From a virus: a DNA stretch of 27,706 bases. The notes beneath the pieces were generated by a model. That model was not told the origin of the DNA, ran no database searches, and worked only from the letters and a program-made list of their open reading frames with translations. The stretch is from positions 1-27,706 of the IMG/VR virus record IMGVR_UViG_3300011114_000190; one strand, 5' to 3'. Positions within the stretch are counted from its first letter, which is position 1; the number at the start of each line of letters is the position of its first letter. Positions 4,593 to 26,396 of this stretch are shown in pieces. The position numbers and the translations under genes were made by a program.

Positions 4593-5120
4593 TTAGACCT
4601 CTTTTCTGGGTCGCCCAGGCTTGCGTTGAACCATCAGCATCGCCATCTGAGCCTTAAGCTCTGCCAGTTCTGATCGGGTTTCTTCCAATTCTGAACTGTT
4701 TTTGCTTTGGTTTTTCTTGGTCAAATAAGACCTGGCACGTTCGCGCAATCCAGCCGCTCCCATGCCTACTTTTTGAATCTGCGAGTCAGATGCAGTTGCT
4801 AGTTGCTCAACCGTCTGAAACTTCAAAATCTGCAATTCAGCTAATTGCATATCATTGAATTCTTCCGGGTCATCTCTGTGCCATTGCATCAAAGGAGTTC
4901 CAATCACCGGAGCATCATCATTCTGCATCTGAAAGTGCAACCATTGACGCGGGAAACGCTGCTTGTGGTGATCCGCAACCATCTGCTCGTTAATGGAGGT
5001 TTTATCACCTGGAATCATAATCCGAACAAACGGCTTGCCCTTGTACGGCTCCCGCTCAAATACATAAAACTCCACGCTCAAATGTGAGTCTGCGTTATTT
5101 ACGTCGCTGTCTAAAGCCAT
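4593..5120 (-). CDS. Conserved-looking phage protein with C-terminal coiled coil and GRPRK tail
   Basis: The 175-residue product has a compact N-terminal region containing EFYVFEREPYKGKPFVRI and QRFPRQWLHFQMQNDD, then an alpha-helical middle resembling a helix-hairpin-helix (LATASDSQIQKVGMGAAGL, about 106-124). A charged coiled-coil-like segment follows (ELEETRSELAELKAQM), and the end is the basic KPGRPRKEV. GRP cores are seen in AT-hook-type minor-groove binders, so contact with packaged DNA is possible but unproven. Its place between decoration-like genes and the adaptor suggests a head-completion or assembly role. No specific function is recognised. Confidence 0.6.
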   Translation of the reverse strand: MALDSDVNNADSHLSVEFYVFEREPYKGKPFVRIMIPGDKTSINEQMVADHHKQRFPRQWLHFQMQNDDAPVIGTPLMQWHRDDPEEFNDMQLAELQILKFQTVEQLATASDSQIQKVGMGAAGLRERARSYLTKKNQSKNSSELEETRSELAELKAQMAMLMVQRKPGRPRKEV

Positions 5121-5138: not shown

Positions 5139-5504
5139 TTAAGTTTTAGTGCCGTTAATGCTGTACCACATTGCATTAGTTACCGCAAAAAAGATGCTTG
5201 TGTGATCTTTGGAAATTGATGCTGATGTGGTTTGGTTCACCGTTGTAGCGGATTCGTAAGGGTAGACCTTAATCGTGCTTGCGCCGGAATTGGCTATGTA
5301 AATTGTTGTTCCCATTTGTGTAGGAGGTAACAAAACGCCAGTTCCAGCGGCTGCCGTATCAACAGAGTTATAGACATACGTTAATTGCAAAGCGTCCGAT
5401 CTCGTTGATCCCGTCGCAGTCAGCCCATCAACACCGTCGCCACAAATGGCAACGGTCATTAGTTGAGCCGCTCCTGCGCCGAGAACCCGCGACGGAATAG
5501 TCAT
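5139..5504 (-). CDS. Small virion-type protein, copy 2 of a tandem duplication
   Basis: The 121-residue product starts MTIPSRVLGAGAAQL at 5504, where the ATG shares its A with the preceding TAA stop (TAATGA). It aligns along its length with the 119-residue protein encoded just upstream: both share IPSRVL, ICGDG, ATGS, DALQL, GV(I/L)LPPT(E/Q)MG, an I.N.SG segment and a YP pair. The sequence is Thr/Ser/Ala/Gly-rich and beta-prone with no Cys pairs, signal peptide or membrane span, as in capsid decoration proteins. Function is inferred from composition and its place between capsid and tail genes. A longer start at 5528 would lie wholly within the upstream paralogue and is rejected. Confidence 0.62.
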   Translation of the reverse strand: MTIPSRVLGAGAAQLMTVAICGDGVDGLTATGSTRSDALQLTYVYNSVDTAAAGTGVLLPPTQMGTTIYIANSGASTIKVYPYESATTVNQTTSASISKDHTSIFFAVTNAMWYSINGTKT

Positions 5505-5863
5505 TACGCAGTCAGAACCGCTGCCCAAGTCGTTGCGCTGGTCGCAAACAAAATCATGCTTTTAGCGGTAACCATCGTCAAAGTTGATGCTGCTGCATTG
5601 ATGGTTGAACCGGATTTCGGGTAAATGGTAATGGTCACTCCAGAGTCGTTACGAATGCCCACCATCGCACCCATTTCAGTCGGAGGCAAGATAACGCCGG
5701 TTGAAGCCGAGCTGGTGGTAATCGTGTTCCAGACTGCCGACAATTGCAAAGCGTCTGTAATGCTGCTTCCAGTCGCCACAAGTGCCGTTGCGCCATCGCC
5801 ACAAATGCTTGTGGTTGCCAACGAGGAAGTGCCTGATGCCAAAACTCGTGAAGGTATAGCCAT
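5504..5863 (-). CDS. Small virion-type protein, copy 1 of a tandem duplication
   Basis: The 119-residue product starts MAIPSRVLASGTSSLA, with an AGGAGAAAC ribosome-binding site just upstream of 5863. It is the paralogue of the next gene, and the two have diverged a good deal while keeping the ICGDG, DALQL and LPPTEMG blocks. The protein looks like a beta-sandwich: short hydrophobic strands separated by Thr/Ser/Gly turns. It directly follows the glycosyltransferase cassette, so it could be a surface decoration protein and a possible acceptor for sugars; that link is speculation from adjacency. Confidence 0.62.
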   Translation of the reverse strand: MAIPSRVLASGTSSLATTSICGDGATALVATGSSITDALQLSAVWNTITTSSASTGVILPPTEMGAMVGIRNDSGVTITIYPKSGSTINAAASTLTMVTAKSMILFATSATTWAAVLTA

Positions 5864-5874
5864 TTTCGTTTCTC

Positions 5875-6555
5875 CTAAAACCCTAGTTTTAAAATGTGGA
5901 ACTGCTTTTCACCCAACTGCAAACCTCGGAAAGTCTTATCCTTTTCTGCAAACCAGACCTTATACATGGGCGAATTTTTGTAATGCTCAAAGCCTGGAAT
6001 GCCTTGCGTCCAATGCAAAATGTGCGCCTTTTTATTTTCCCCGTACTCATCGCACAACCAATTCCACTCAGCAGGAAGTTCTCCAATTTGCGCGTCTTTC
6101 AGCCAGTTGAATTGATGGGAAACCAGAGAGTTTTGAGCTTTAAATTTGTTGGCTTTATGCCCACAATTCAAAAGCATCAAACTTGACCAGTTTTTGCGCT
6201 CGTAATCAATATTCGGGCATTCCATGTCCGTCCCGATATATTTGAATTTTGCGCTTGTTTTATACGTATTTTTGACTACTTGGACAGCATATTTTTCATC
6301 CCGCAGGTTCCAAAGTTCGGCAATGTCGGTAATGCAGACCATATCGCTGCCATCCGCAAATATGGCCCAGCCTTCGTAATCGCACAACTTCGGAATGCTG
6401 AACCGCGAATAAGTGAAGGCATTGCTGCCATTCCCTTGCTGACCGTGAATTGGGATGATAGAAACCGGCTCAGAGGCCCGTGAAACTACGCTATTGACAA
6501 AAACACTCAGCCCTGCCGCTTCTCGTTTGTCCCACCCGCAGAACAGCCGGATCAT
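5875..6555 (-). CDS. Glycosyltransferase, GT-A type (DxD-like)
   Basis: The 226-residue product has features of a GT-A nucleotide-sugar transferase. An N-terminal strand (MIRLFCGWDKREAAG) precedes a Ser-rich helix, then YSRFSIPKLCDYEGWAIF leads into DGSD at residues 68-71, which fits the metal- and nucleotide-sugar-binding DxD motif. Later blocks are SLMLLNCGH (about 124-132) and HILHWTQGIPGF near the C-terminus, with a conserved-looking His/Trp. It overlaps the methyltransferase gene upstream by ATGA (6555/6552). Sugar donor and acceptor are unknown. With its three neighbours it probably modifies a virion component or host glycan. Confidence 0.75.
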   Translation of the reverse strand: MIRLFCGWDKREAAGLSVFVNSVVSRASEPVSIIPIHGQQGNGSNAFTYSRFSIPKLCDYEGWAIFADGSDMVCITDIAELWNLRDEKYAVQVVKNTYKTSAKFKYIGTDMECPNIDYERKNWSSLMLLNCGHKANKFKAQNSLVSHQFNWLKDAQIGELPAEWNWLCDEYGENKKAHILHWTQGIPGFEHYKNSPMYKVWFAEKDKTFRGLQLGEKQFHILKLGF

Positions 6556-7031
6556 GGCTTCCTCGCTGAAATTCTCATATCACGCTGCGGAACATGGAAA
6601 AACGGGGTTTCATGCTTTATGTCCTCAAATCCGGCCCGAGCCAGCAAATCGACAATTTCCTGCTTTGAATAGCACCAATGGTGACGCATTGCAGGGGGAT
6701 CATCCATGCCGAACAATGCAGCACCAATCAAATGCTGTTTGCGATTTCCTTGATTCCAAATTGCAATGATATTGTCTAGACAAGGCATTTCTAGCGAAAT
6801 TGTGCCTTTTCGCTTTAGAAGGCGTTTCCACTCCGCAACCGTGTTTAATACGTCTTTGCGTTCAATATGCTCAAACAGGTGAATGGCTGATATTTCATCG
6901 GCACATTCATCATCCAAATTGATTTTTCGTACGTCGGAACGGATGTCAACATCGCCCACAATGTCGATATTTAACCAACCAGGCCAATGCCTATCACCCG
7001 CTCCTAGATGGAGTCGAACACGGTCGCCCAT
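6552..7031 (-). CDS. SAM-dependent methyltransferase of the sugar cassette
   Basis: The 159-residue product starts MGDRVRLHLGAGDRHWPGW. LHLGAG (7-12) is a class I methyltransferase motif I, followed by a NIDIVGD strand that would end in the acidic SAM-ribose contact. AIHLFEHIERKDV (about 49-61) matches the FEHI motif common in methyltransferases linked to glycosyltransferases. A C-terminal HHWCYSKQEIVDLLARAGF fits the usual helix. The ATG has an AGGAGCGCA site and overlaps the GT-B gene by 28 bases. It is somewhat short for the family but contains the core fold. A sugar-methylating role is inferred from its neighbours. Confidence 0.78.
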   Translation of the reverse strand: MGDRVRLHLGAGDRHWPGWLNIDIVGDVDIRSDVRKINLDDECADEISAIHLFEHIERKDVLNTVAEWKRLLKRKGTISLEMPCLDNIIAIWNQGNRKQHLIGAALFGMDDPPAMRHHWCYSKQEIVDLLARAGFEDIKHETPFFHVPQRDMRISARKP

Positions 7032-7855
7032 TGCGCTCCTATCTCTTCTGGTGAAAATTTCAATCGGATGTAATCCTGCGCTTTTGTGGTCAGATCAAGC
7101 AGGTCTTTCTGGTAGCACCTAGCAAACTGAACGCCGCCATGAACCGGACCCACCCAGACGTAATCCCTGAATTGCCGGTTTATTTCGCTTTTCCCAGCCA
7201 CAACAAAACATCCCGCCATAACCGCGCATATAAGCCTATTTGCGCTCTTGTAGGTGTTTTCTTCGGCAGTCGGTAGGATTACCACATCTGCAATTGAAAG
7301 CTCCCCACGGAGCGCAGATTCAGACCATGCGGTATATTTTGGCAGGATGCCGTTTGAACCTGTGCAATAGCGAATATTGAGGTTTTTGGTTACTACCTCA
7401 TATTGGCTGATTTCCCCAATATTAAGCTGATGACCAAACCACAAAAACTTGTCGCCTTTGGCATGGGGTTTTTCCTCAAATTCCCACGGGTCTGGGACAA
7501 CTTGAGCGCACACACCCGTTTTCAAATAGATGCGCTTTGCCATTTCCTCGCTTGAGCAGACCACCCGATCCGCTTCCTTGGCGCAGGTTGTATAAGTCTC
7601 GGCCCAAAACGGATTCTGAAAATGATCGTCGCAGATGTCCACAATGGCTTTTGCGCCGGAAGCCTTTACCCGCCGAATATTCTCTACGTCATCTTTTGTG
7701 GGCTTGCTGAAAACAATAAAATCGCCTTCGCCGCCGTTTATAGAGGTTTTGTAACCATGCGTTTGTAGCTGGGCAGCGGGGATCTGCACCCGCAGCCGGT
7801 AGGAGGCCATTGTTGGGCCTCCTCGATGAATAAACGCTACGCCGCGAGCTTCCAT
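7004..7855 (-). CDS. Glycosyltransferase, GT-B type
   Basis: The 283-residue product resembles GT-B glycosyltransferases. An N-terminal strand-loop-helix (VAFIHRGGPTMASYRLR) is followed by a strand with DICDDHF (about 73-79), and a C-terminal half contains FLWFGHQLN, ADVVILPT and a SANRLICAVMAGCFVVA stretch typical of the donor-binding domain. The start at 7855 keeps the first strand and has a GAGG site 5 bases upstream. An ATG at 7810 with a strong AGGAGG would remove that strand, so it is taken as an alternative. It overlaps the DUF115 gene by 19 bases. Donor and acceptor cannot be read from the sequence. Confidence 0.75.
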   Translation of the reverse strand: MEARGVAFIHRGGPTMASYRLRVQIPAAQLQTHGYKTSINGGEGDFIVFSKPTKDDVENIRRVKASGAKAIVDICDDHFQNPFWAETYTTCAKEADRVVCSSEEMAKRIYLKTGVCAQVVPDPWEFEEKPHAKGDKFLWFGHQLNIGEISQYEVVTKNLNIRYCTGSNGILPKYTAWSESALRGELSIADVVILPTAEENTYKSANRLICAVMAGCFVVAGKSEINRQFRDYVWVGPVHGGVQFARCYQKDLLDLTTKAQDYIRLKFSPEEIGAQWATVFDSI

Positions 7856-8613
7856 TCACGCCTCACCTTGAGAATTTCTGCTATTAAACCATCTCCGCGA
7901 GCTTCTATGGTGACATCCGGCATCACCGTGTAAATGAGTTGAAATTCGTTAGCTTGTTGCGCCATAGCCATATTGCTGACGAACCGTTTACGGTCTATCC
8001 CATCCCCGACATAAATATCCACCGTTTTTCCGGCTTTTTCACCCGTAAAACGCTTGGTCCCGTCTTCCTTAATGCAGGAATCGTAACCAATCAGGATGAA
8101 CTTGCGAAATCCCATCAGGTAGCCCAGATTGATCGCTCGCAGGCCGGAAGTCGTACCGCCACCTACCGCAAGTCGCCCACCAATAGCTTGAGATTCTTCA
8201 TCCATTGACCAACTATTCCAGACTAGGATTTTCTTGCCTGCTAGATGGTCAAACATCACAGGGGGGCAGCGGGAAGCCACCAAATAGGTCGTGTGGTCGT
8301 TTTTACGCTGAACGCCGTTAGTCCTATCCCGAGGATCAAGATCGACCCACAAATCAGGTTCTACGCCGTTTTCACATAGATAATCATGCGCTCCCTTAAT
8401 CGCGCAGATTGGCCTTCCATTCGCTCGATGCTCTTTTATCTCTGCTAGAAACTCCGGCAAAGATGGCCCACTCCCCGCCAGCACCATGGTTCCATCGTGC
8501 CGACAGGGAGAGGGTTGAAACTCTGGAAGATTTCGGGACAGGGCAGACCGAATATACGCAGCGTTCTCGCTAGGAGTACCCGCTGCCCTGATCTTAATTT
8601 CCAGTTTTTCCAT
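7837..8613 (-). CDS. DUF115 / MptE-like protein (Maf-type glycosyl transfer family)
   Basis: The 258-residue product shows the hallmarks of the DUF115/MptE-like superfamily: MVLAGSGPSLPEF (43-55) with the GSGPSL loop, WVDLDPRDR (89-97) and a later GGGTTSGLRAINLGYLMGF block (about 151-169) followed by ILIGYDSC. Known members include archaeal pterin diphosphokinase and bacterial Maf proteins that attach nonulosonic sugars to flagellin Ser/Thr. In phages these genes sit beside glycosyltransferases, as here. It starts at 8613 through a TAATG overlap with the decoration-like gene, so it is co-translated with virion genes. Reaction and target protein are unknown. Confidence 0.75.
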   Translation of the reverse strand: MEKLEIKIRAAGTPSENAAYIRSALSRNLPEFQPSPCRHDGTMVLAGSGPSLPEFLAEIKEHRANGRPICAIKGAHDYLCENGVEPDLWVDLDPRDRTNGVQRKNDHTTYLVASRCPPVMFDHLAGKKILVWNSWSMDEESQAIGGRLAVGGGTTSGLRAINLGYLMGFRKFILIGYDSCIKEDGTKRFTGEKAGKTVDIYVGDGIDRKRFVSNMAMAQQANEFQLIYTVMPDVTIEARGDGLIAEILKVRREWKLAA

Positions 8614-9092
8614 TAGGTTCCGACAATACCGGAGCCAATGTTCGGGTAGCCTGCAATACAGGTCACCGCAGTAGCATTTGAAATTGAGGTTGTCGCCACA
8701 AGTCCAAACACAATCCCGCCCGAAACAACAGCGTCATCAAGAACGCCAGAAGTTGCGGTGGTGTAAAGCGGCACGCTTGGAGCCGCATTTGCCGCCAGAT
8801 TGACAAGCACCTTGCCGCCCAGTTGCACCCAGCCATAATAGCCAGAGGCAATGGAGGTCTGTGCAAAACCAACCCGCTTGCAAGTTGCTGCAAGCGTCGT
8901 GGTCAGCATCTGCGCCTTTTGCGTGTCATAAACCGCAACGGCAGCATAGGTGCTGATTTCCGACAGAGCTTGCACATAAATAGCCTGGCCGCCATCAGAC
9001 GTATTTACAACGGTCCCAGTAGTAAACTGGGAAGTCGTATCTACGTTGGTAAGGGTCACGCCGATGGTATTGCTAACGCTGAATGTAGGCAT
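8613..9092 (-). CDS. Putative capsid decoration / head protein
   Basis: The 159-residue product (MPTFSVSNTIGVTLTNVD) is Thr/Ala/Val-rich and beta-prone, with a central SGYYGWVQLGGKVLV segment (about 91-105) of the kind found in small phage head decoration proteins, then Gly/Ala-rich strands to the end. It lies directly after the capsid gene, the usual place for a decoration protein, and has an AGGAGATAAAAAC ribosome-binding site. Its stop overlaps the DUF115 start (TAATG). That coupling links production of this head protein to the sugar cassette, making it a candidate acceptor. The decoration role is inferred from position and composition. Confidence 0.65.
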   Translation of the reverse strand: MPTFSVSNTIGVTLTNVDTTSQFTTGTVVNTSDGGQAIYVQALSEISTYAAVAVYDTQKAQMLTTTLAATCKRVGFAQTSIASGYYGWVQLGGKVLVNLAANAAPSVPLYTTATSGVLDDAVVSGGIVFGLVATTSISNATAVTCIAGYPNIGSGIVGT

Positions 9093-9104: not shown

Positions 9105-10106
9105 TTAAGCTATCAGCACGCCGCTGAACTGCGGACCGCTGGAGGTAAGATTGCCAGCCCACCCAATCAACTTGACAATAGCGTCTTGGTTGACTGCCTG
9201 ACGTTCTCCACCGATAGGCACAAAATTACGATCTGCATGGGGCCGGAACATGATGTATTTTGTGTTCAGGAACCACATGTGATTTGCCGTTGCCGCCGAA
9301 CCGATACCACCGTCCAGAACAACGTCAGATGCCATACCCGCGCCATAGTATTTCAGCGAGGCAAAGCCAGCACCCGCCATCGAAGAACCCGAATCAGAAA
9401 TACGCTGAATCGATTGCAACGATTGCAGATAAAGGCGGTAGTAGTTGTTATCCGCAACGATTAGATCGGGCTTGTCCGTTCCGCGAATCAACTGAACCGC
9501 AATCGTGTCCATGTATTGCTGGATGTTGGATGCAGTAACAGCCGCGCCGCCGTTCGTCACGCCAGAGTAAGCAACCGAACGCCAGAAGGTCCAAGTGGCA
9601 CGATCAATGCCGCCATAGGTTCCGGTGCTAGGTGCGTCAGGAACAGCCAGGCCCAAACCCGTGATGTTTTTGCCGCTGTTGCCGGTTCCGTCCAGATAAA
9701 TATCCGAACCGATACGGTTTGCCAGTTGCGCCTCGGCTACGTTCATCCGACCGTCAAGCAGGTCAATGATCGCTTCCTTGCCGCTGTTCTGGATCATCTC
9801 CAGACCGCTGATCGAAACCGCAGCAGCGTATTGCGTGATGCTGAACTGCGCCGAGCTAATCGGGCTGTTCTGGCTCACGTTCAGCACTTCGTAACCCGAA
9901 TAAGAATTCGTGTTATTCGTTGCCGTGTCGTTGTACATAATTTCTTGCAAAATTACGTTACCACCGCTGAAAGTTTTGACGTTTCCGCGTTCTTTCAACC
10001 TGCGAAGCAGGGCATTGTTGTTTGTTACGTTATCGGCCAGCTCACCAGTACGACTTTGGATGTTTGTCGCAATGATGTCGCTGATCGAAGAGTTGGCGAA
10101 AGCCAT
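9105..10106 (-). CDS. Major capsid protein
   Basis: The 333-residue product is the likely shell protein. It directly follows the scaffold gene, has a strong AGGAGATAAAAAA site, and shows a typical capsid composition: Ala/Gly/Asn/Ser-rich, an early helical region (ALLRRLKERGNVKTFSG, about 32-48), a long helix near residues 105-140 (NSGKEAIIDLLDGRMNVAEA), a region consistent with the spine helix, and a C-terminal set of strands. Residues PDLIVADNNYYRLY and MFRPHADRNFVPIGG resemble pieces shared by podovirus capsid proteins of similar length. No cleavage site is obvious. The call rests on order, length and fold-like pattern. Confidence 0.82.
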   Translation of the reverse strand: MAFANSSISDIIATNIQSRTGELADNVTNNNALLRRLKERGNVKTFSGGNVILQEIMYNDTATNNTNSYSGYEVLNVSQNSPISSAQFSITQYAAAVSISGLEMIQNSGKEAIIDLLDGRMNVAEAQLANRIGSDIYLDGTGNSGKNITGLGLAVPDAPSTGTYGGIDRATWTFWRSVAYSGVTNGGAAVTASNIQQYMDTIAVQLIRGTDKPDLIVADNNYYRLYLQSLQSIQRISDSGSSMAGAGFASLKYYGAGMASDVVLDGGIGSAATANHMWFLNTKYIMFRPHADRNFVPIGGERQAVNQDAIVKLIGWAGNLTSSGPQFSGVLIA

Positions 10107-18088: not shown

Positions 18089-19309
18089 TTATGCGGCTTT
18101 CTTCAATGAAATGAAAGGCTTACCATTTGATTCAAGCGTTGCTGTCTGTCCTGTGAATTCCTGCCAGCGTTGGACGATGACATCGCAGTATTTGGGGTCG
18201 AGTTCCATGAGATAACCATACCGTCCGTTCTTCTCGGCAGCAATGATTGTGGTGCCGGAGCCGCCAAATAAATCGAGGACAATGTCCCCGCCCTTTGTGT
18301 TGTTAAGCATCTGGTATTCAAACAACCCTACGGGCTTCATCGTTGGATGCTCGCCATTACGAGATGGCTTGTCAAACTCAAGAATGGTTGTCTGCTTGCG
18401 ATCTGTGGCCCACAGGTGGCCTGCTCCTTCCTTCCACCCGTACAGGCAAGGCTCATGCTTCCAATGGTAGTCTTGTCGCCCCATGACCAACGACGACTTT
18501 TTCCAAATCAAGCATTGACGCACATTTAGACCAGCGTCATTGCATGCGCCTCGGAAGTTGTAACCCTCCGTGTCGGCATGCCAGATGTAGAACACCGCGC
18601 CTTTCTTCATTACGGTGTTGGCGGTCACAAATGCATCACGCAAGAATTGTCGGAACTGGTCGTCGCCCATGCTGTCGTTTTGAATGGTTAGTTTTTCCTT
18701 TGTTCCACCCTCGTAAGCCACGTTGTAAGGTGGGTCGGTCAGCAGCATGTCAGCCCCCCCCCCCGCCATCAGCTTCTCAACCGCATCAATGCTGGTCGAG
18801 TCCCCGCACATCAGCCGATGCTTGCCCAGCAGCCAAACGTCCCCCAGAACGGTCACAGGGGCTTCAGGGACTTCAGGAACAGCATCCTCGTCTGTCAGCC
18901 CCTCCGTCCCTGTTGGAGCCAGCAGTGCCTCGATCTCGTCGGTGCTAAAGCCCGTCAGGTCAAGATCAAAGCCCATGTCCTTCAGATCGGTAAGCTCTAC
19001 CGCCAGCATCTCGTCATCCCAACCCGCATTCAGGGCCAGCTTGTTGTCAGCAATAACGTAGGCTTTCTTTTGCGCGTCGGTCAGATGAGTGAGTCGGATG
19101 CTAGGAACGTCAGTAATCGCTAACTTCCGCGCCGCCATTACCCGTCCGTGACCGGCAATAATGCTTCCCGTTTCGTCAATCAGGACGGGATTGGTAAAGC
19201 CGAATTCCTTGATGCTGGCAGCAATCTGGGCCACTTGAGCATCGGAATGGGTGCGGCTGTTCCTGGCATACGGAATCAGCGCGTCCAGCTTTATTTGTTC
19301 AAGTATCAT
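18089..19309 (-). CDS. ParB-like domain fused to DPPY-type DNA methyltransferase
   Basis: The 406-residue product joins two domains. Residues 1-110 are a ParB/Srx-like fold (LIPYARNSRTHSDAQVAQIA, GSIIAGHGRVMAAR with GHGR, YVIADNKLALNAGWD). Residues 150-400 are a beta-class DNA methyltransferase with catalytic DPPY near 191 and SAM-binding VLDLFGGSGTT near 346. DPPY points to adenine-N6 or possibly cytosine-N4 modification. No partner endonuclease is nearby, so it looks like an orphan phage methyltransferase protecting phage DNA from host restriction or marking it. An 11-base G run lies in the coding strand just before DPPY (codons 182-185). A candidate promoter precedes it. Confidence 0.88.
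   Translation of the reverse strand: MILEQIKLDALIPYARNSRTHSDAQVAQIAASIKEFGFTNPVLIDETGSIIAGHGRVMAARKLAITDVPSIRLTHLTDAQKKAYVIADNKLALNAGWDDEMLAVELTDLKDMGFDLDLTGFSTDEIEALLAPTGTEGLTDEDAVPEVPEAPVTVLGDVWLLGKHRLMCGDSTSIDAVEKLMAGGGADMLLTDPPYNVAYEGGTKEKLTIQNDSMGDDQFRQFLRDAFVTANTVMKKGAVFYIWHADTEGYNFRGACNDAGLNVRQCLIWKKSSLVMGRQDYHWKHEPCLYGWKEGAGHLWATDRKQTTILEFDKPSRNGEHPTMKPVGLFEYQMLNNTKGGDIVLDLFGGSGTTIIAAEKNGRYGYLMELDPKYCDVIVQRWQEFTGQTATLESNGKPFISLKKAA
18754..18764 (-). repeat. G11 homopolymer inside the methyltransferase gene
   Basis: Eleven consecutive C on the given strand (G on the coding strand) encode Ala-Gly-Gly-Gly-Ala just before the DPPY motif. It is the longest homopolymer noticed in the window. 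A change of one base would shift the frame ahead of all catalytic motifs. With 11 bases the frame is open. Confidence 0.95.
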
Positions 19310-22059: not shown

Positions 22060-22208
22060 AAATCTAAATCTTGCTCAATGTAAAGCTCTTTCAAAAAATA
22101 GTTGGGCGTTATCTTTTCGCCCAGATCAGGACAGGTCGCACAGACCACCCGCCCATCGGGTAGCGTTACCGGCAGGGTCTCGATCTGATTGCAGCCTAAA
22201 CAGGTCAT
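22056..22208 (-). CDS. 50-residue zinc-finger protein
   Basis: A 50-residue frame (MTCLGCNQIETLPVTLPD ...) starts in an ATGA overlap with the stop of the methyltransferase gene. Two CxxC pairs, CLGC at 3-6 and CATC at 23-26, are separated by a VTLPDGRVV beta-hairpin; together they would form a compact zinc ribbon. The rest is a charged helical tail rich in Leu and Asp/Glu. Its role is unknown; DNA or protein binding would be usual for such a fold. The paired cysteines and the exact overlap argue that it is real. Confidence 0.65.
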   Translation of the reverse strand: MTCLGCNQIETLPVTLPDGRVVCATCPDLGEKITPNYFLKELYIEQDLDL

Positions 22209-23242
22209 TTAAACAAGTTAATTTGAGCAGTTTCATTTAGGGCATTTCTAATTCTTTCATCCTGCAATGCTTTGTACGCCGGGTTGAATTCGCACCCTAA
22301 ATAGTCTCGACCGTTAGCTATCGCCACAGCAGCCGTTGTGCCGCTGCCCATGAACGGGTCTAGCACCACGCCACCCGCAGGTGCACCCGCTAAGATGCAA
22401 GGCGTAATCAGGTCAGATGGGAAAGTGGCGAAGTGCGCTCCTTTGTATGGTTTGGTAGTTACTGTCCAGACGCTGCGTTTGTTGCGCCGCCCCGTTTCGT
22501 TTTGCACCCACTCATTACCGCTTTTTGTGCGGCTTTTCTCGCTATCATCATCGCCATATTTATTACCACCAAAGCGTGGCCCCACAGCTTTCATGTTGCC
22601 ATTTGTCTTTCCCGGAACCCTGTCGCTTCCGGCTTGTTGCGCCAGTGTCGGCTGGGCCAGTCGCGCCACACTACTCGCAGCTAACTGCTCGGCAATCGCT
22701 TCGTTGTCAAAGTAATACTTCTGCGACTTGCTCAACAGAAAAATGTATTCATGCGCCTTCGTGCATCTGTCCTGCACAGACTCAGGCATAGGGTTAGGCT
22801 TATGCCAGATAATGTCTTGACGCAGATACCAGCCATCTGCCCTAAGTGCAAAGGCCAGCATCCACGGTATGCCAATCAAGTCTTTTTCTTTTAATCCGGG
22901 TAATATATTTCCGCGCCTAGCGCAAATATCTGGCAAATCTTGCTTTGTATTGCTAACGGATTGTTTAACAAGTGCCTGTCCTTTTCCCGGACGATAGTTG
23001 TAATAACTATAGCCAATGTTCAGCCACAGCGTTCCATCGTCCTCCAACACATCCCAAACGCATCGGAACACTTCGACCATCGCCTTAATGTAAGCCTCTG
23101 GCGTTTCCTCTAGGCCGATCTGCCCATTGTGTCCGTAATCACGCAGCCCGTAGTAGGGCGGTGAAGTCACGCACGTTTGCGCCTTCACGCCCTGCTCTTT
23201 CCAACCTTGCATTGTTTCGCGGCAGTCTCCAAACTCAATCAT
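22205..23242 (-). CDS. SPPY-type DNA methyltransferase (probable cytosine-N4)
   Basis: The 345-residue product is a beta-class DNA methyltransferase. Catalytic TSPPYYGLRDYG lies at 26-37, and the SAM-binding VLDPFMGSGTT near 291-301 is followed by the EFNPAY adenine-ring strand. SPPY in this order is typical of cytosine-N4 enzymes. Between them a variable, Lys/Asn/Gly-rich stretch (about 195-260) is the likely target-recognition region. No partner endonuclease is close. It has a GGAGG site 7 bases from the ATG and overlaps the small HTH gene by 8 bases. The recognition site is not predictable from sequence alone. Confidence 0.88.
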   Translation of the reverse strand: MIEFGDCRETMQGWKEQGVKAQTCVTSPPYYGLRDYGHNGQIGLEETPEAYIKAMVEVFRCVWDVLEDDGTLWLNIGYSYYNYRPGKGQALVKQSVSNTKQDLPDICARRGNILPGLKEKDLIGIPWMLAFALRADGWYLRQDIIWHKPNPMPESVQDRCTKAHEYIFLLSKSQKYYFDNEAIAEQLAASSVARLAQPTLAQQAGSDRVPGKTNGNMKAVGPRFGGNKYGDDDSEKSRTKSGNEWVQNETGRRNKRSVWTVTTKPYKGAHFATFPSDLITPCILAGAPAGGVVLDPFMGSGTTAAVAIANGRDYLGCEFNPAYKALQDERIRNALNETAQINLFK

Positions 23243-23653: not shown

Positions 23654-24264
23654 TTAACCCAATTAGGTGTTAAACCGGCTTTTTTCAGAATTGCCACATT
23701 TTCAGGTTGCAGCAATCTTCGCAAACCGCGTTTTTCAATCTGCCGCACCCGTTCTCTGGTAACACCTAACTTCTTGCCCATGTCCTCAAGCGTCAGTTCC
23801 TCGTCGCTCATCATCCCGCGCAGCACCTTTTCTTCTTGTGGCTTTGTCCTGTTTGCCAGCAGATCATTTACAACACGCGCTGTTTCAATTTTTAACAAAG
23901 CATCTTCGGGACTGGGCAACGCCGCTATCTGCTCTCCCTGCTGCCGAGACAATGCCTGAAACTGCCCTATATCCATGTCAATTTCGCGCCAACCAATGTT
24001 TGTGCGAAGCTTTAGCATGAGCTGCTCTGGTGTCCAGAGATCGGTAGGCGCGGCCCCGAGCACCTCCATAACGACTTTGGCAACCCTCCCGAATTCTCCG
24101 GTCTGTCCGATGGGACAATCACGCATTGCAACCAACCCCTGCACCGCGCCATTTCGCAGTTCTGCCGAGCGTTCAAATTCTGCAATGGATTTGAAACCTG
24201 CTGCCTCAATAGCAGACAGCAAAAGATTGTTTTTTACGGCTACTTTTATTCGATAGGCTTTCAT
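23650..24264 (-). CDS. Sigma-70 region-4-like regulator
   Basis: The 204-residue product ends in a clear sigma-70 region 4: MSDEELTLEDMGKKLGVT then RERVRQIEKRGLRRL (about 151-184), the DNA-contacting helix-turn-helix for a -35 element. Its first 90 residues (MKAYRIKVAVKNNLLLSAIE, EVLGAAPTDLWTPEQL) form another helical unit typical of phage proteins of this class. Sigma regions 2 and 3 are absent, so it cannot act as a complete sigma factor. It may redirect or block host polymerase, for example at the late promoter. It overlaps the Cro-like gene by ATGA with a GGAGGAAACA site. Confidence 0.78.
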   Translation of the reverse strand: MKAYRIKVAVKNNLLLSAIEAAGFKSIAEFERSAELRNGAVQGLVAMRDCPIGQTGEFGRVAKVVMEVLGAAPTDLWTPEQLMLKLRTNIGWREIDMDIGQFQALSRQQGEQIAALPSPEDALLKIETARVVNDLLANRTKPQEEKVLRGMMSDEELTLEDMGKKLGVTRERVRQIEKRGLRRLLQPENVAILKKAGLTPNWVK

Positions 24265-24449
24265 TGTTTCCTCCGTTTGTATTTAGTCTCATCGACCATC
24301 AGTTTTCCCCCCGTCATCACTTGCAGCCGGTAAGCCACTCCCCGAACTACCAGCACCCCCCAAGCCTCGACCGCCTGCCGAGTAATACCCAGAGCTTCAG
24401 CAAGCTTCCGTCGCCCTCCAAAATGTTGCACAGCATCAATCGTTTTCAT
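24261..24449 (-). CDS. Cro-like repressor
   Basis: The 62-residue product starts MKTIDAVQHFGGRRKLAE at 24449, with a GGAA site just upstream. Residues 4-30 form a helix-turn-helix typical of Cro/YdaS-type repressors: FGGRRKLAEALGITRQAVEAWG, followed by a small beta segment (VVRGVAYRLQVMTGGKL). It lies first in the leftward operon next to a divergent operator-promoter region, exactly where Cro sits in lambdoid phages. A longer frame to 24779 would cross the promoter region and the plus-strand genes, so it is rejected. Confidence 0.82.
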   Translation of the reverse strand: MKTIDAVQHFGGRRKLAEALGITRQAVEAWGVLVVRGVAYRLQVMTGGKLMVDETKYKRRKQ

Positions 24450-24510
24450 GGCTTTTCCGTGGTTGCAATGGGCGCACTCTAACCTTGAAATAAATAAATT
24501 GCAATAATAC

Positions 24511-24539
24511 TTGCAAAGCAATTTTCCTTGCATTATAGT
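24511..24539 (+). promoter_or_regulatory. Candidate rightward early promoter
   Basis: TTGCAA (24511-24516) and TATAGT (24534-24539) are spaced by 17 bases, matching the sigma-70 layout; 4 of 6 and 5 of 6 consensus bases match. It would start transcription about 25 bases before the first plus-strand gene. Confidence 0.55.
24532..24537 (-). promoter_or_regulatory. Candidate leftward -10 element
   Basis: The minus strand reads a perfect TATAAT here, overlapping the rightward -10. No good -35 is seen at the right distance. A second possibility is TTGCAA at 24516-24511 with TTATTT 17 bases on. Either would drive the Cro-like operon. Confidence 0.35.
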
Positions 24540-24569
24540 TCTTTCATCGCAACCGAACCGGAGAACGAA

Positions 24570-24704
24570 ATGACCAAAGCCGAAATGAAAAAAGAATTTG
24601 AAAAATACTACGCAGCTCTTGTTGAGGATGGCGAAATGGAAGGAGCAAAGTTCGACAAAGCAGAACAATGGCAATGGTTCCAAGACAACTACCCGCAAAA
24701 CTGA
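24570..24704 (+). CDS. 44-residue helical early protein
   Basis: The first rightward gene encodes 44 residues (MTKAEMKKEFEKYYAALV ... WQWFQDNYPQN). A GGAG site lies 7 bases before the ATG and the candidate promoter just upstream. The product is acidic, helical and aromatic-rich at its end. No family is recognised. As the first early gene under Cro control it could be a host-takeover or antirepressor-type peptide, but that is only position-based. Confidence 0.62.
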   Translation: MTKAEMKKEFEKYYAALVEDGEMEGAKFDKAEQWQWFQDNYPQN

Positions 24705-24743
24705 TTCTTCTGCCTCTGCAAAGCGGGGGTTTAGGAATACGCA

Positions 24744-24760
24744 GCCAGAGCGAGTCTGGC
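24744..24760 (+). other. Hairpin in the leader of the 116-residue gene
   Basis: GCCAGA and TCTGGC form a perfect 6-bp stem with a 5-base GCGAG loop, 9 bases upstream of the GGAGG ribosome-binding site. There is no U tract after it, so it is more likely to affect translation or RNA stability than to terminate. Confidence 0.45.
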
Positions 24761-24777
24761 AACTAAACGGAGGCAAC

Positions 24778-25128
24778 ATGAGTTATCAAAACGAAGCACA
24801 CGGTGACGAGGATACGTTGGCAGAACCCAGCAAGCGAAACTACGAGCTTGCGCTTGAGCAAGTTGTCGAAACCATCATGCTCCACGGTCAATATCCTGCA
24901 CCCAAGCGTGGCGGGTTCACGCGCTCGCAGTTTGACATTTACGATTTCTTGCTTGAAAACAGAGACCCGTCTTACTTTTTTGAAATGTACATTGCGGTGC
25001 TGACCGGCGCAGATATTTACGACCGGAAACAACGCGAGACTAAGAAGGTGGAGGCAATGCTTGCAGACCACTTTCGCAACAGCGAAATTGTAGAAGCGAT
25101 TGCATTAGATATATCGAGGGACAAATGA
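24778..25128 (+). CDS. Hypothetical early protein
   Basis: The 116-residue product starts MSYQNEAHGDEDTLAE at an ATG with an ideal CGGAGGCAAC site; a longer frame from 24598 runs through the 44-residue gene in another frame and is rejected. Residues 18-110 look helical and contain ALEQVVETIMLHGQYPAP, RSQFDIYDFLLENRD and MLADHFRNSEIVEAIAL. No motif or family is recognised. It overlaps the following membrane peptide by ATGA, so it belongs to the early operon leading to the recombination genes. Confidence 0.68.
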   Translation: MSYQNEAHGDEDTLAEPSKRNYELALEQVVETIMLHGQYPAPKRGGFTRSQFDIYDFLLENRDPSYFFEMYIAVLTGADIYDRKQRETKKVEAMLADHFRNSEIVEAIALDISRDK

Positions 25129-25211
25129 GCATTTCAGAATGGGTTTCTAACGTCTGCGCTATCGGCGCAATCATCGTATTTTCAATTCTTATATGGGGCA
25201 ACAATGAATAA
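25125..25211 (+). CDS. 28-residue single-span membrane peptide
   Basis: A 28-codon frame (MSISEWVSNVCAIGAIIV ... WGNNE) has a CGAGG site 5 bases before its ATG, an ATGA overlap with the previous gene and an 8-base overlap with ERF. Residues 7-25 are hydrophobic enough for one membrane-spanning helix, flanked by Glu and Asn. Such tiny early phage peptides often act on host membrane proteins, but no homologue is recognised here. Confidence 0.6.
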   Translation: MSISEWVSNVCAIGAIIVFSILIWGNNE

Positions 25212-25782
25212 ATCAGAAAGCACCAAGGAGCTGGCAACCTCGCTCGCAAAAGCGCAAGGAAGCATTAAAGGAGCAATTAAGGATTCAAGCAATCCTTTCT
25301 TCAAATCCAAATATGCAGACCTTGCATCGGTGGTTGAGGCAATCCGCAGCTCATTTGCAGCCAACGGTTTGTCATACATCCAGACCATTGAGCCTTCCCA
25401 GGCTGATGAGGTGCGGGTCGAAACGATAATCTTGCATTCCAGCGGGGAGTGGATTTCCTGCGGGGTCTTGGCCCTGCCGGTCAGCAAAGTGGATGCCCAA
25501 GGATACGGTTCTGCGTTGACGTACGCCAGACGCTACGGTCTGTCGGCAGCCGTAGGAGTCGCACCGGAAGATGACGATGGCAACGCAGCCACGGCAGCGA
25601 AACCCAAGCTAATTGATTATTCCAAGCACCTTGCAGCACTCGGAGCCGCGCCAACATTAGACGATTTGCAGAAAGTTTTTACCGTTGCCTACAAAGCCGC
25701 TCAGGTGGCAAATGACACGGCAGGAATGCACCTCCTGACCAACGCCAAAAACGAACGCAAATCTGCTCTGGTGCAACTATGA
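25204..25782 (+). CDS. erf: ERF-family single-strand annealing protein
   Basis: The 192-residue product matches the ERF family of phage recombination proteins. NPFFKSKYADLASVVEAIR (about 30-48), the GLSYIQTIEP strand and the GSALTYARRYGLSAAVGV block (about 102-119) are its hallmarks. ERF promotes annealing of complementary single strands, replacing host RecA in phage recombination and circularisation. The C-terminal third is a variable helical linker. It lies just before a YqaJ exonuclease, which would supply its substrate; the two overlap by ATGA. P22 Erf is 204 residues, so the length fits. Confidence 0.9.
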   Translation: MNKSESTKELATSLAKAQGSIKGAIKDSSNPFFKSKYADLASVVEAIRSSFAANGLSYIQTIEPSQADEVRVETIILHSSGEWISCGVLALPVSKVDAQGYGSALTYARRYGLSAAVGVAPEDDDGNAATAAKPKLIDYSKHLAALGAAPTLDDLQKVFTVAYKAAQVANDTAGMHLLTNAKNERKSALVQL

Positions 25783-26396
25783 TTGTCGTGGATTGCGCTC
25801 AAGGAACACCGGAATGGCTTGCGGCTCGAGCCGGTAAAGTGACCGCCAGCATGATTTCGGCGGTCCTGATGAAGCCGGAAACGGCTGGATTCAGGGACTA
25901 CCAAGCGCAGCTGGTTGCCGAGATTTTGACCGGCAAGCCTCAAGGTTCAGATTTTACAAACGCGGCGATGCAATTTGGGACAGAAACCGAGCCTTTGGCT
26001 AGGAGCGCATACGAGGCGCATACGGGGTTTTCGGTGGACGAAGTAGGCATGGTTATCCACCCAACAATTGAACGCTCTGGGGCCAGTCCTGACGGTCTGG
26101 TGGGCAATTCTGGGTTAGCCGAGATTAAATGTCCCAAGGTGGCTACCCACCTAGCTTATCTAGTGGCTGGAGTTGTGCCAACCACCTATAAAAACCAGAT
26201 GTCCTGGCAGATGGCCTGCACCGGCAGGGACTGGTGCGATTTCATCAGCTTCCGGCCTGACTTGCCCGAAAACTTGCAATTGTTTGTAGTGCGGTATCAA
26301 AGAGATCCGGCAAAGATTGCCGAGCTGGAAACTGCGGTGGTCAACTTTCTGGCTGGCGTGGATCAAATGATTAACAAATTGAAAGGAATTAAATAA
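25779..26396 (+). CDS. YqaJ-family (lambda Exo-like) exonuclease
   Basis: The 205-residue product is a lambda exonuclease-type enzyme. GTPEWLAARAGKVTAS (9-24), FGTETEPLAR (66-75), GASPDGLVG (101-109) and LAEIKCP (113-119) supply the usual motifs, with D105, E115 and K117 as catalytic residues of the PD-(D/E)XK core. A later YKNQMSWQMACTGRDWCDF completes the family pattern. It resects double-stranded ends so that ERF can anneal the exposed strand. It is about the size of lambda Exo (226 residues). It overlaps ERF by ATGA and the next gene by TAATG. Confidence 0.92.
   Translation: MIVVDCAQGTPEWLAARAGKVTASMISAVLMKPETAGFRDYQAQLVAEILTGKPQGSDFTNAAMQFGTETEPLARSAYEAHTGFSVDEVGMVIHPTIERSGASPDGLVGNSGLAEIKCPKVATHLAYLVAGVVPTTYKNQMSWQMACTGRDWCDFISFRPDLPENLQLFVVRYQRDPAKIAELETAVVNFLAGVDQMINKLKGIK

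Follow-up and report, generated by a model that had tools for sequence, protein, structure and literature searches.

A putative virion-glycosylation cassette centred on a Maf-like transferase and a decoration gene in the head operon of an Mx8-type podovirus

The locus at positions 5875-8613 of the virus record analysed here is probably a virion-glycosylation cassette, with the C1-type decoration protein encoded at 8613-9092 as its putative main acceptor. Virion self-glycosylation with methylation, as proposed in the original prediction, was the reading best supported by the comparative loci, but the list of targets was narrowed. The products of 8613-9092, 5504-5863 and 5139-5504 had been named as equal candidates; the first is now favoured, and the other two are less likely because they did not co-vary with DUF115 and occurred both with and without it. 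What the sequences show directly is the gene identities, the operon position, purifying selection, modular variation of the locus, C1-DUF115 pairing and recurrence of the accessory enzymes in other virion operons.

The window (the whole stretch of DNA analysed, 27,706 nt) is IMG/VR record IMGVR_UViG_3300011114_000190, a 27.7 kb fragment of a podovirus with an Mx8-type capsid. Its minus strand carries a head and tail operon in the order terminase, portal, major capsid protein (MCP), decoration-type gene, four cassette genes, two small genes and tail genes (Table 1). The MCP was about 50% identical to the capsid proteins of Myxococcus phage Mx8, Stenotrophomonas phage BUCT555 and Bradyrhizobium phage ppBjS10J-1 (51-53% for Mx8 and BUCT555), and the phage was therefore assigned to the Mx8-type podoviruses. 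In almost every relative, the variable locus was followed by the conserved gene gF. Promoter-like and terminator-like sites in the window showed no excess over shuffles. Contigs of relatives were binned in several MAGs.

Table 1. Features of the variable locus and its anchors in the window.
Feature	Position	Strand	Length (aa)	Evidence
Major capsid protein (Mx8-type), upstream anchor of variable locus	9105..10106	-		phrog_9953 major head protein, 2.3e-108
C1-type decoration/head protein, likely acceptor	8613..9092	-		phrog_29386 virion structural protein; co-varies with DUF115
DUF115/Maf-like transferase, putative core enzyme	7837..8613	-	258	PF01973 MptE-like/DUF115, E 6.6e-19; TAATG coupling
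GT-B (GT4-like) glycosyltransferase, accessory	7004..7855	-	283	11/18 family members match Glyco_transf_4; weak GT-B model matches
Class I SAM-dependent methyltransferase, accessory	6552..7031	-	159	PF13489 (Methyltransf_23) and PF08241 (Methyltransf_11) over cut-off; LGAGDxxWPGW motif
GT8-like GT-A glycosyltransferase, accessory	5875..6555	-	226	PF01501, 1.4e-4; phrog_28018, 4.6e-25; FADGSDM motif
d1, small Ser/Thr-rich virion-type protein (C2 family), probably not DUF115 partner	5504..5863	-		S+T 31.9%
d2, paralogue of d1	5139..5504	-		ATG start; listed ORF extends to 5528
gF, conserved gene, downstream anchor of variable locus	4593..5120	-		phrog_20268, 5.3e-15

The four overlapping minus-strand genes that had been proposed agreed with the ORFs in all coordinates, and successive genes overlapped by 19, 28 and 4 bases. 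The predicted TAATG coupling of the DUF115 gene to the gene upstream was found at the junction, which reads 'cctaatgg'. The upstream gene matched a family of virion structural proteins, phrog_29386 (1.1e-6), and its product resembled the 'major virion structural protein' p49 of Mx8 over a central 39-aa stretch. The two small genes downstream, d1 and d2, were duplicated as described (44% identity over 117 aa, E 7e-33). In all four cassette genes dN/dS against the nearest relative, L001, was 0.04-0.10, a sign of purifying selection, so these are not chance ORFs. Their identities as DUF115, GT-B-like, methyltransferase and GT8-like genes held in Pfam and PHROG searches, in matches of other family members and in structural models.

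The PF01973 score of the DUF115 protein was 68.8 bits, above the curated cut-off of 34.6. A model built from 35 relatives (mean pLDDT 82.7, pTM 0.84) matched best the Magnetospirillum Maf glycosyltransferase 5MU5 (E 1.4e-7), followed by archaeal HPPK and, more weakly, sialyltransferases. The window protein also weakly matched the sialyltransferase-like family phrog_4603 (5.6e-4). G-x-G-x-S, D-x-R, GGGTT-type and other motifs were invariant or nearly so across divergent phage copies; in part of the family GWS replaces GPS, with G and S kept. The window DUF115 combines the Maf fold with the conserved G-x-G-x-S and GGGTT motifs; it is a DUF115 protein, possibly Maf-like in its action, rather than a flagellin Maf. 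The M. jannaschii HPPK was matched nearly as well as Maf (about 2.5e-7 to 6.8e-7 versus 1.4e-7), as would be expected if DUF115 were an MptE-like 6-hydroxymethylpterin diphosphokinase with an incidental location. This is hardly credible: scans of the window gave no pterin-pathway genes, relatives carry DUF115 fused to methyltransferase and glycosyltransferase domains, and the gene is strictly paired with the decoration gene.

The GT-B gene was assigned largely through its family, 11/18 members of which matched PF13439 (Glyco_transf_4; best 3.9e-5); the window copy itself gave no credible Pfam family match, and a low-confidence model (pLDDT 61.7) matched GT-B folds. For the methyltransferase, the glycine-rich SAM motif LGAGDxxWP was nearly invariant in the family. 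It weakly matched the mycofactocin oligosaccharide methyltransferase MftM (1.8e-6, far under its cut-off), and it probably carries out sugar O-methylation, judging by its family. The PF01501 (Glyco_transf_8) score of the GT8-like protein, 22.0 bits, fell just below the cut-off of 24.3, and the protein was 38% identical to annotated phage glycosyltransferases. A PDB profile search with GT-B and GT8 gave no useful match.

Modification of phage DNA by the glycosyltransferases was considered, phage-enzyme DNA glycosylation being known (work cited in PMC12619734) and the GT-B model giving a weak match to T4 DNA alpha-glucosyltransferase (1y6g, 4.5e-4). It is very improbable, since several non-DNA GT-B enzymes were matched equally well in the same search, DUF115 stands alone in most relatives, and a Pfam scan of 30 window proteins (the record being a fragment) detected no base hydroxymethylase. 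Two N6/N4 DNA methylases were present among these proteins.

The four cassette proteins had no transmembrane-like segment (hydropathy maxima 0.5-1.5), a point against a lipid-carrier system in the membrane, and the cassette holds neither the membrane flippase nor the membrane-bound transferase of O-antigen conversion. Its enzymes might still alter a host surface polysaccharide (LPS or O-antigen), giving a superinfection block or a receptor change; phage glycosyltransferases with host-surface use are known (mentioned in PMC12619734), and a lysogenic life is possible, with a Cro-like regulator in the window and a relative inside the Pandoraea iniqua genome. That role is nevertheless decidedly unlikely. 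The cassette is flanked by head genes of the virion operon and coupled to the decoration gene, its proteins are not membrane-like, comparable enzyme sets occur in virion operons of other lineages, and action on host polysaccharide would leave the C1 pairing unexplained. Placement of glycosyltransferase genes inside the virion gene block is that of a phage virion-glycosylation system.

The comparison sample comprised about 200 related loci. The first 80 were retrieved with a DUF115 query and are therefore biased and uninformative on DUF115 absence. Complete loci with MCP identity of at least 70% fell into 111 with C1 and DUF115 and 14 with C6 and no DUF115 (0 mixed), C6 being a 98-aa type unrelated to C1 that occupies the slot directly after the capsid gene. 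The same pairing was obtained in two scans seeded with capsid protein only, without DUF115 (49 C1 with DUF115 versus 14 C6). In whole records, PF01973 was detected in 0/9 C6 records (up to 34 kb, three of 34 kb) versus 6/6 C1 records. Trees of the MCP and of the tail gene gE were made with FastTree. On the gE tree the C1/C6 and DUF115 traits switched jointly in 6/6 supported independent pairs (sign test, p 0.031); the MCP tree gave only 3 supported independent switches, too few for a sign test.

Protein distances of DUF115 and C1 were also correlated. The partial rank correlation was 0.73 given MCP and gE (70 loci; 0/400 permutations as high) and 0.74 given all other genes. For DUF115 and the d1/d2-type protein it was 0.04 and -0.06, respectively, although the d1/d2-type gene lies as close to DUF115 as C1 does, in most loci only a few bases away. 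Again given all other genes, the remaining seven adjacent pairs in the operon gave -0.08 to 0.27, and adjacency alone therefore does not explain C1-DUF115 co-divergence, though adjacency and joint exchange may account for part of the pairing. The co-divergence held in each of the three DUF115 subfamilies taken singly (0.22 to 0.85; 0.53 in the first once loci with the GT-B insert were excluded). The pair was retained at MCP identity down to 49% (L315), in L291-L312, where the d1/d2 gene does not follow, and in L102-type loci, where an extra gene stands between C1 and DUF115. Homologues of C1 without DUF115 were found in Mx8, ctMlz233 and a Brevundimonas contig, and distant relatives (capsid 41-56%) include C1 without DUF115; dependence of C1 on DUF115 is thus not universal, and the modification is not needed in all phages.

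As evidence at the sequence level, the comparative data point to pairing of C1 and DUF115 rather than to chemistry, and would also fit DUF115 as a non-enzymatic or chaperone partner for C1 folding or assembly. We regard this as extremely improbable, the G-x-G-x-S, D-x-R and GGGTT-type motifs being near-invariant in divergent copies, as for an enzyme, and DUF115 recurring as a methyltransferase fusion.

Glycosylation of the virion with d1/d2 or another virion protein, not C1, as acceptor is unlikely. The d1 protein has the highest Ser/Thr content of those listed, both d1 and d2 adjoin the cassette, and the C-terminal domain of C3 variants resembles BclA (weak match, 0.0068). On the other side, d1/d2-type genes are present in C6 phages without DUF115, are absent behind DUF115 in L291-L312 and show no co-variation with DUF115. 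Ser/Thr content was rejected as acceptor evidence: C6 is as Ser/Thr-rich as C1, yet was never found with DUF115 at loci with MCP identity of at least 70%. The accessory GT-B, methyltransferase and GT8 enzymes could act on d1/d2.

Five states of the locus were distinguished between the capsid gene and gF: DUF115 alone (most relatives); DUF115 with GT-B and methyltransferase; these three with GT8 (the window plus seven other distinct records); a DUF115-methyltransferase fusion of about 448 aa; and a GT-DUF115-methyltransferase fusion of 659 aa in L163. The 'four-gene cassette' first described is thus real in that the four genes are present, but it represents one of several forms taken by a modular locus whose core is the decoration gene with DUF115. 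The two kinds of fusion suggest that DUF115, the methyltransferase and a second glycosyltransferase share one pathway. The GT-B distribution was derived from the DUF115- and MCP-seeded scans; a GT-B-seeded scan of viral contigs gave nothing beyond the nearest relative. No glycosyltransferase is annotated at the locus in the isolates Mx8, BUCT555 and ppBjS10J-1 or in the metagenome-assembled ctMlz233. DNA searches of the phage collection with the cassette and with 24 kb of the window gave 0 matches, as did tblastn with DUF115 (two versions) and GT-B, and no annotated isolate carrying them was found. The only cultured record among the relatives is of C6 type, without the cassette, and lies inside the Pandoraea iniqua LMG 31009 genome.

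Two other lineages have similar modules in their virion gene blocks, where the capsid or neck genes are of other kinds. GT8 relatives in some unrelated phages adjoin the same kind of methyltransferase. In the SU10-type phage contig L192, a GT8-GTB-MT set like that of the window lies between an SU10-type capsid gene and an SU10 adaptor gene; its capsid family is unrelated to that of the window, and a TPR protein and a radical-SAM/SPASM protein precede the set, at the place of DUF115. In L183, an MT-GT8-sialyltransferase-like set is placed between the head-closure and neck genes, in a block that also holds tail-terminator and tape-measure genes, and its sialyltransferase-like gene belongs to phrog_4603, the family weakly matched by the window DUF115.

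In the proposed mechanism, the cassette genes would be expressed late, and DUF115, acting like Maf, would place the first sugar on exposed Ser/Thr of C1. The donor sugar would have to come from the host nucleotide-sugar pool; no nucleotide-sugar synthesis genes were found among the scanned window proteins, which cover part of the phage. Judging by their enzyme families, the GT-B and GT8-like enzymes would extend the glycan with further sugars and the small methyltransferase would methylate it. A short methylated glycan on the capsid surface would result. Glycosylation itself, late expression, the Ser/Thr linkage, the donor sugar, the order of steps and the benefit, perhaps in adsorption, immunity or protease protection, are what we infer.

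Maf enzymes O-glycosylate flagellin Ser/Thr, and their central PF01973 domain resembles the sialyltransferase Cst-II (PMC11339370). The phage protein has in common with Maf flagellin glycosyltransferases (MAF_flag10/DUF115, 5MU5) the PF01973 domain and the best structural match, and its gene is likewise placed beside that of a surface structural protein, the presumed Ser/Thr acceptor. It differs in size and architecture: Maf 5MU5 has 632 residues, of which the 258-aa phage protein clearly corresponds to the central domain only and lacks the large domains on either side. Flagellin Maf is a three-domain enzyme that transfers nonulosonic acid to Ser/Thr of flagellin, whereas the phage DUF115 has a single domain and its gene stands in a head operon as the partner of a capsid decoration gene. 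Phage-encoded virion glycosylation is known. It is proven for mycobacteriophages Che8, Corndog and Myrna, in which glycosyltransferases encoded by the phage act on its capsid or tail-tube protein (Freeman et al. 2023, cited by PMC12363180, PMC12619734 and PMC12691614). Compared with those systems, as far as these sources describe them, the window has DUF115 as its core enzyme, a decoration protein as its likely target and methyltransferases in the set. Mx8 (AF396866) has the same order of MCP, decoration-type virion protein and tail genes, with a homologous MCP and a similar decoration protein, but no DUF115, GT or MT is annotated between the last two. In titles and abstracts of mostly open-access literature, nothing was found on DUF115/PF01973 on phage capsids; in the same literature, no paper was found on a decoration protein with glycosyl- and methyltransferases, nor any description of a decoration protein that has a Maf-like transferase as its partner.

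C1 and its own Maf-like transferase may form an exchangeable 'capsid coat' unit, a proposal for which we consider the case evenly balanced. Phages of one lineage with near-identical capsid proteins would swap a glycosylated coat (C1 with DUF115, in some with extra sugar and methyl enzymes) for a bare one (C6), much like flagellin/Maf variation in bacteria, and similar modules would have arisen in unrelated phages at corresponding positions of their virion operons. If the cassette acts as proposed, it offers for study Maf-like enzymes that are small, consist of a single domain and have natural fusions, and each transferase comes with an identifiable acceptor. The function of a capsid glycan would be testable, as nature provides closely related pairs in which one phage has the cassette and the other lacks it (capsid protein >90% identical), and virion glycosylation would be widespread in environmental phages, beyond the mycobacteriophages.

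Enzyme sets similar to the cassette were present in other phage lineages (Table). The five-gene row of an SU10-type phage (L192) was flanked by capsid and adaptor genes, and is possibly a further virion-modification module, one that includes a radical-SAM step. The set of another tailed phage (L183) was surrounded by head-closure and neck genes, and its sialyltransferase-like gene matched phrog_4603 (7e-30).

A relative of the window phage (L172) was contained in a 1.23 Mb contig of the cultured bacterium Pandoraea iniqua LMG 31009 (NZ_CABPSF010000002.1). Its decoration gene was of the C6 type with no adjoining DUF115, and PF01973 gave 0 matches over the cut-off across the whole genome of this strain.

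Variant forms were also seen: a tandem pair of DUF115-type matches lay downstream of the decoration gene in L315, and the small d1/d2 protein had a variant form encoded by C3 genes. The C-terminal domain of this variant matched BclA_C weakly (0.0068), and the C3 protein is possibly a head fibre.

Two N6/N4 DNA methylases were encoded in the window, and the N-terminal part of the one at 18089-19309 gave a ParB-like match. Temperate ancestry of the phage is suggested by the P22 Cro-like regulator and by the genes for ERF recombinase and YqaJ nuclease that follow it in divergent orientation.

Several relatives carried an HNH homing-type endonuclease gene as an insertion between the capsid gene and the decoration gene, and exchange of the capsid-gF locus may be driven by the inserted endonuclease.

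Table. Positions of features in the window and related loci (MT, methyltransferase).
Locus	Position	Feature	Match
L192	341-7573	TPR protein, radical-SAM/SPASM protein, GT8, GT-B, MT (consecutive)	
L183	4510-6256	MT, GT8-like, sialyltransferase-like	
L172	7001-11857	Relative of window phage	
L315	5995-7317	Tandem DUF115-type pair	
L008	7996-8823	C3 gene (example)	
Window	18089-19309	N6/N4 DNA methylase	
Window	22205-23242	N6/N4 DNA methylase	
Window	24261-24779	P22 Cro-like regulator	
Window	25204-25782	ERF recombinase	
Window	25779-26396	YqaJ nuclease	
L069	5802-6275	HNH endonuclease	HNH_3, 1.2e-10
L030	462-929	HNH endonuclease	
L162	4625-5080	HNH endonuclease	
L307, L308		HNH endonuclease, same insertion place
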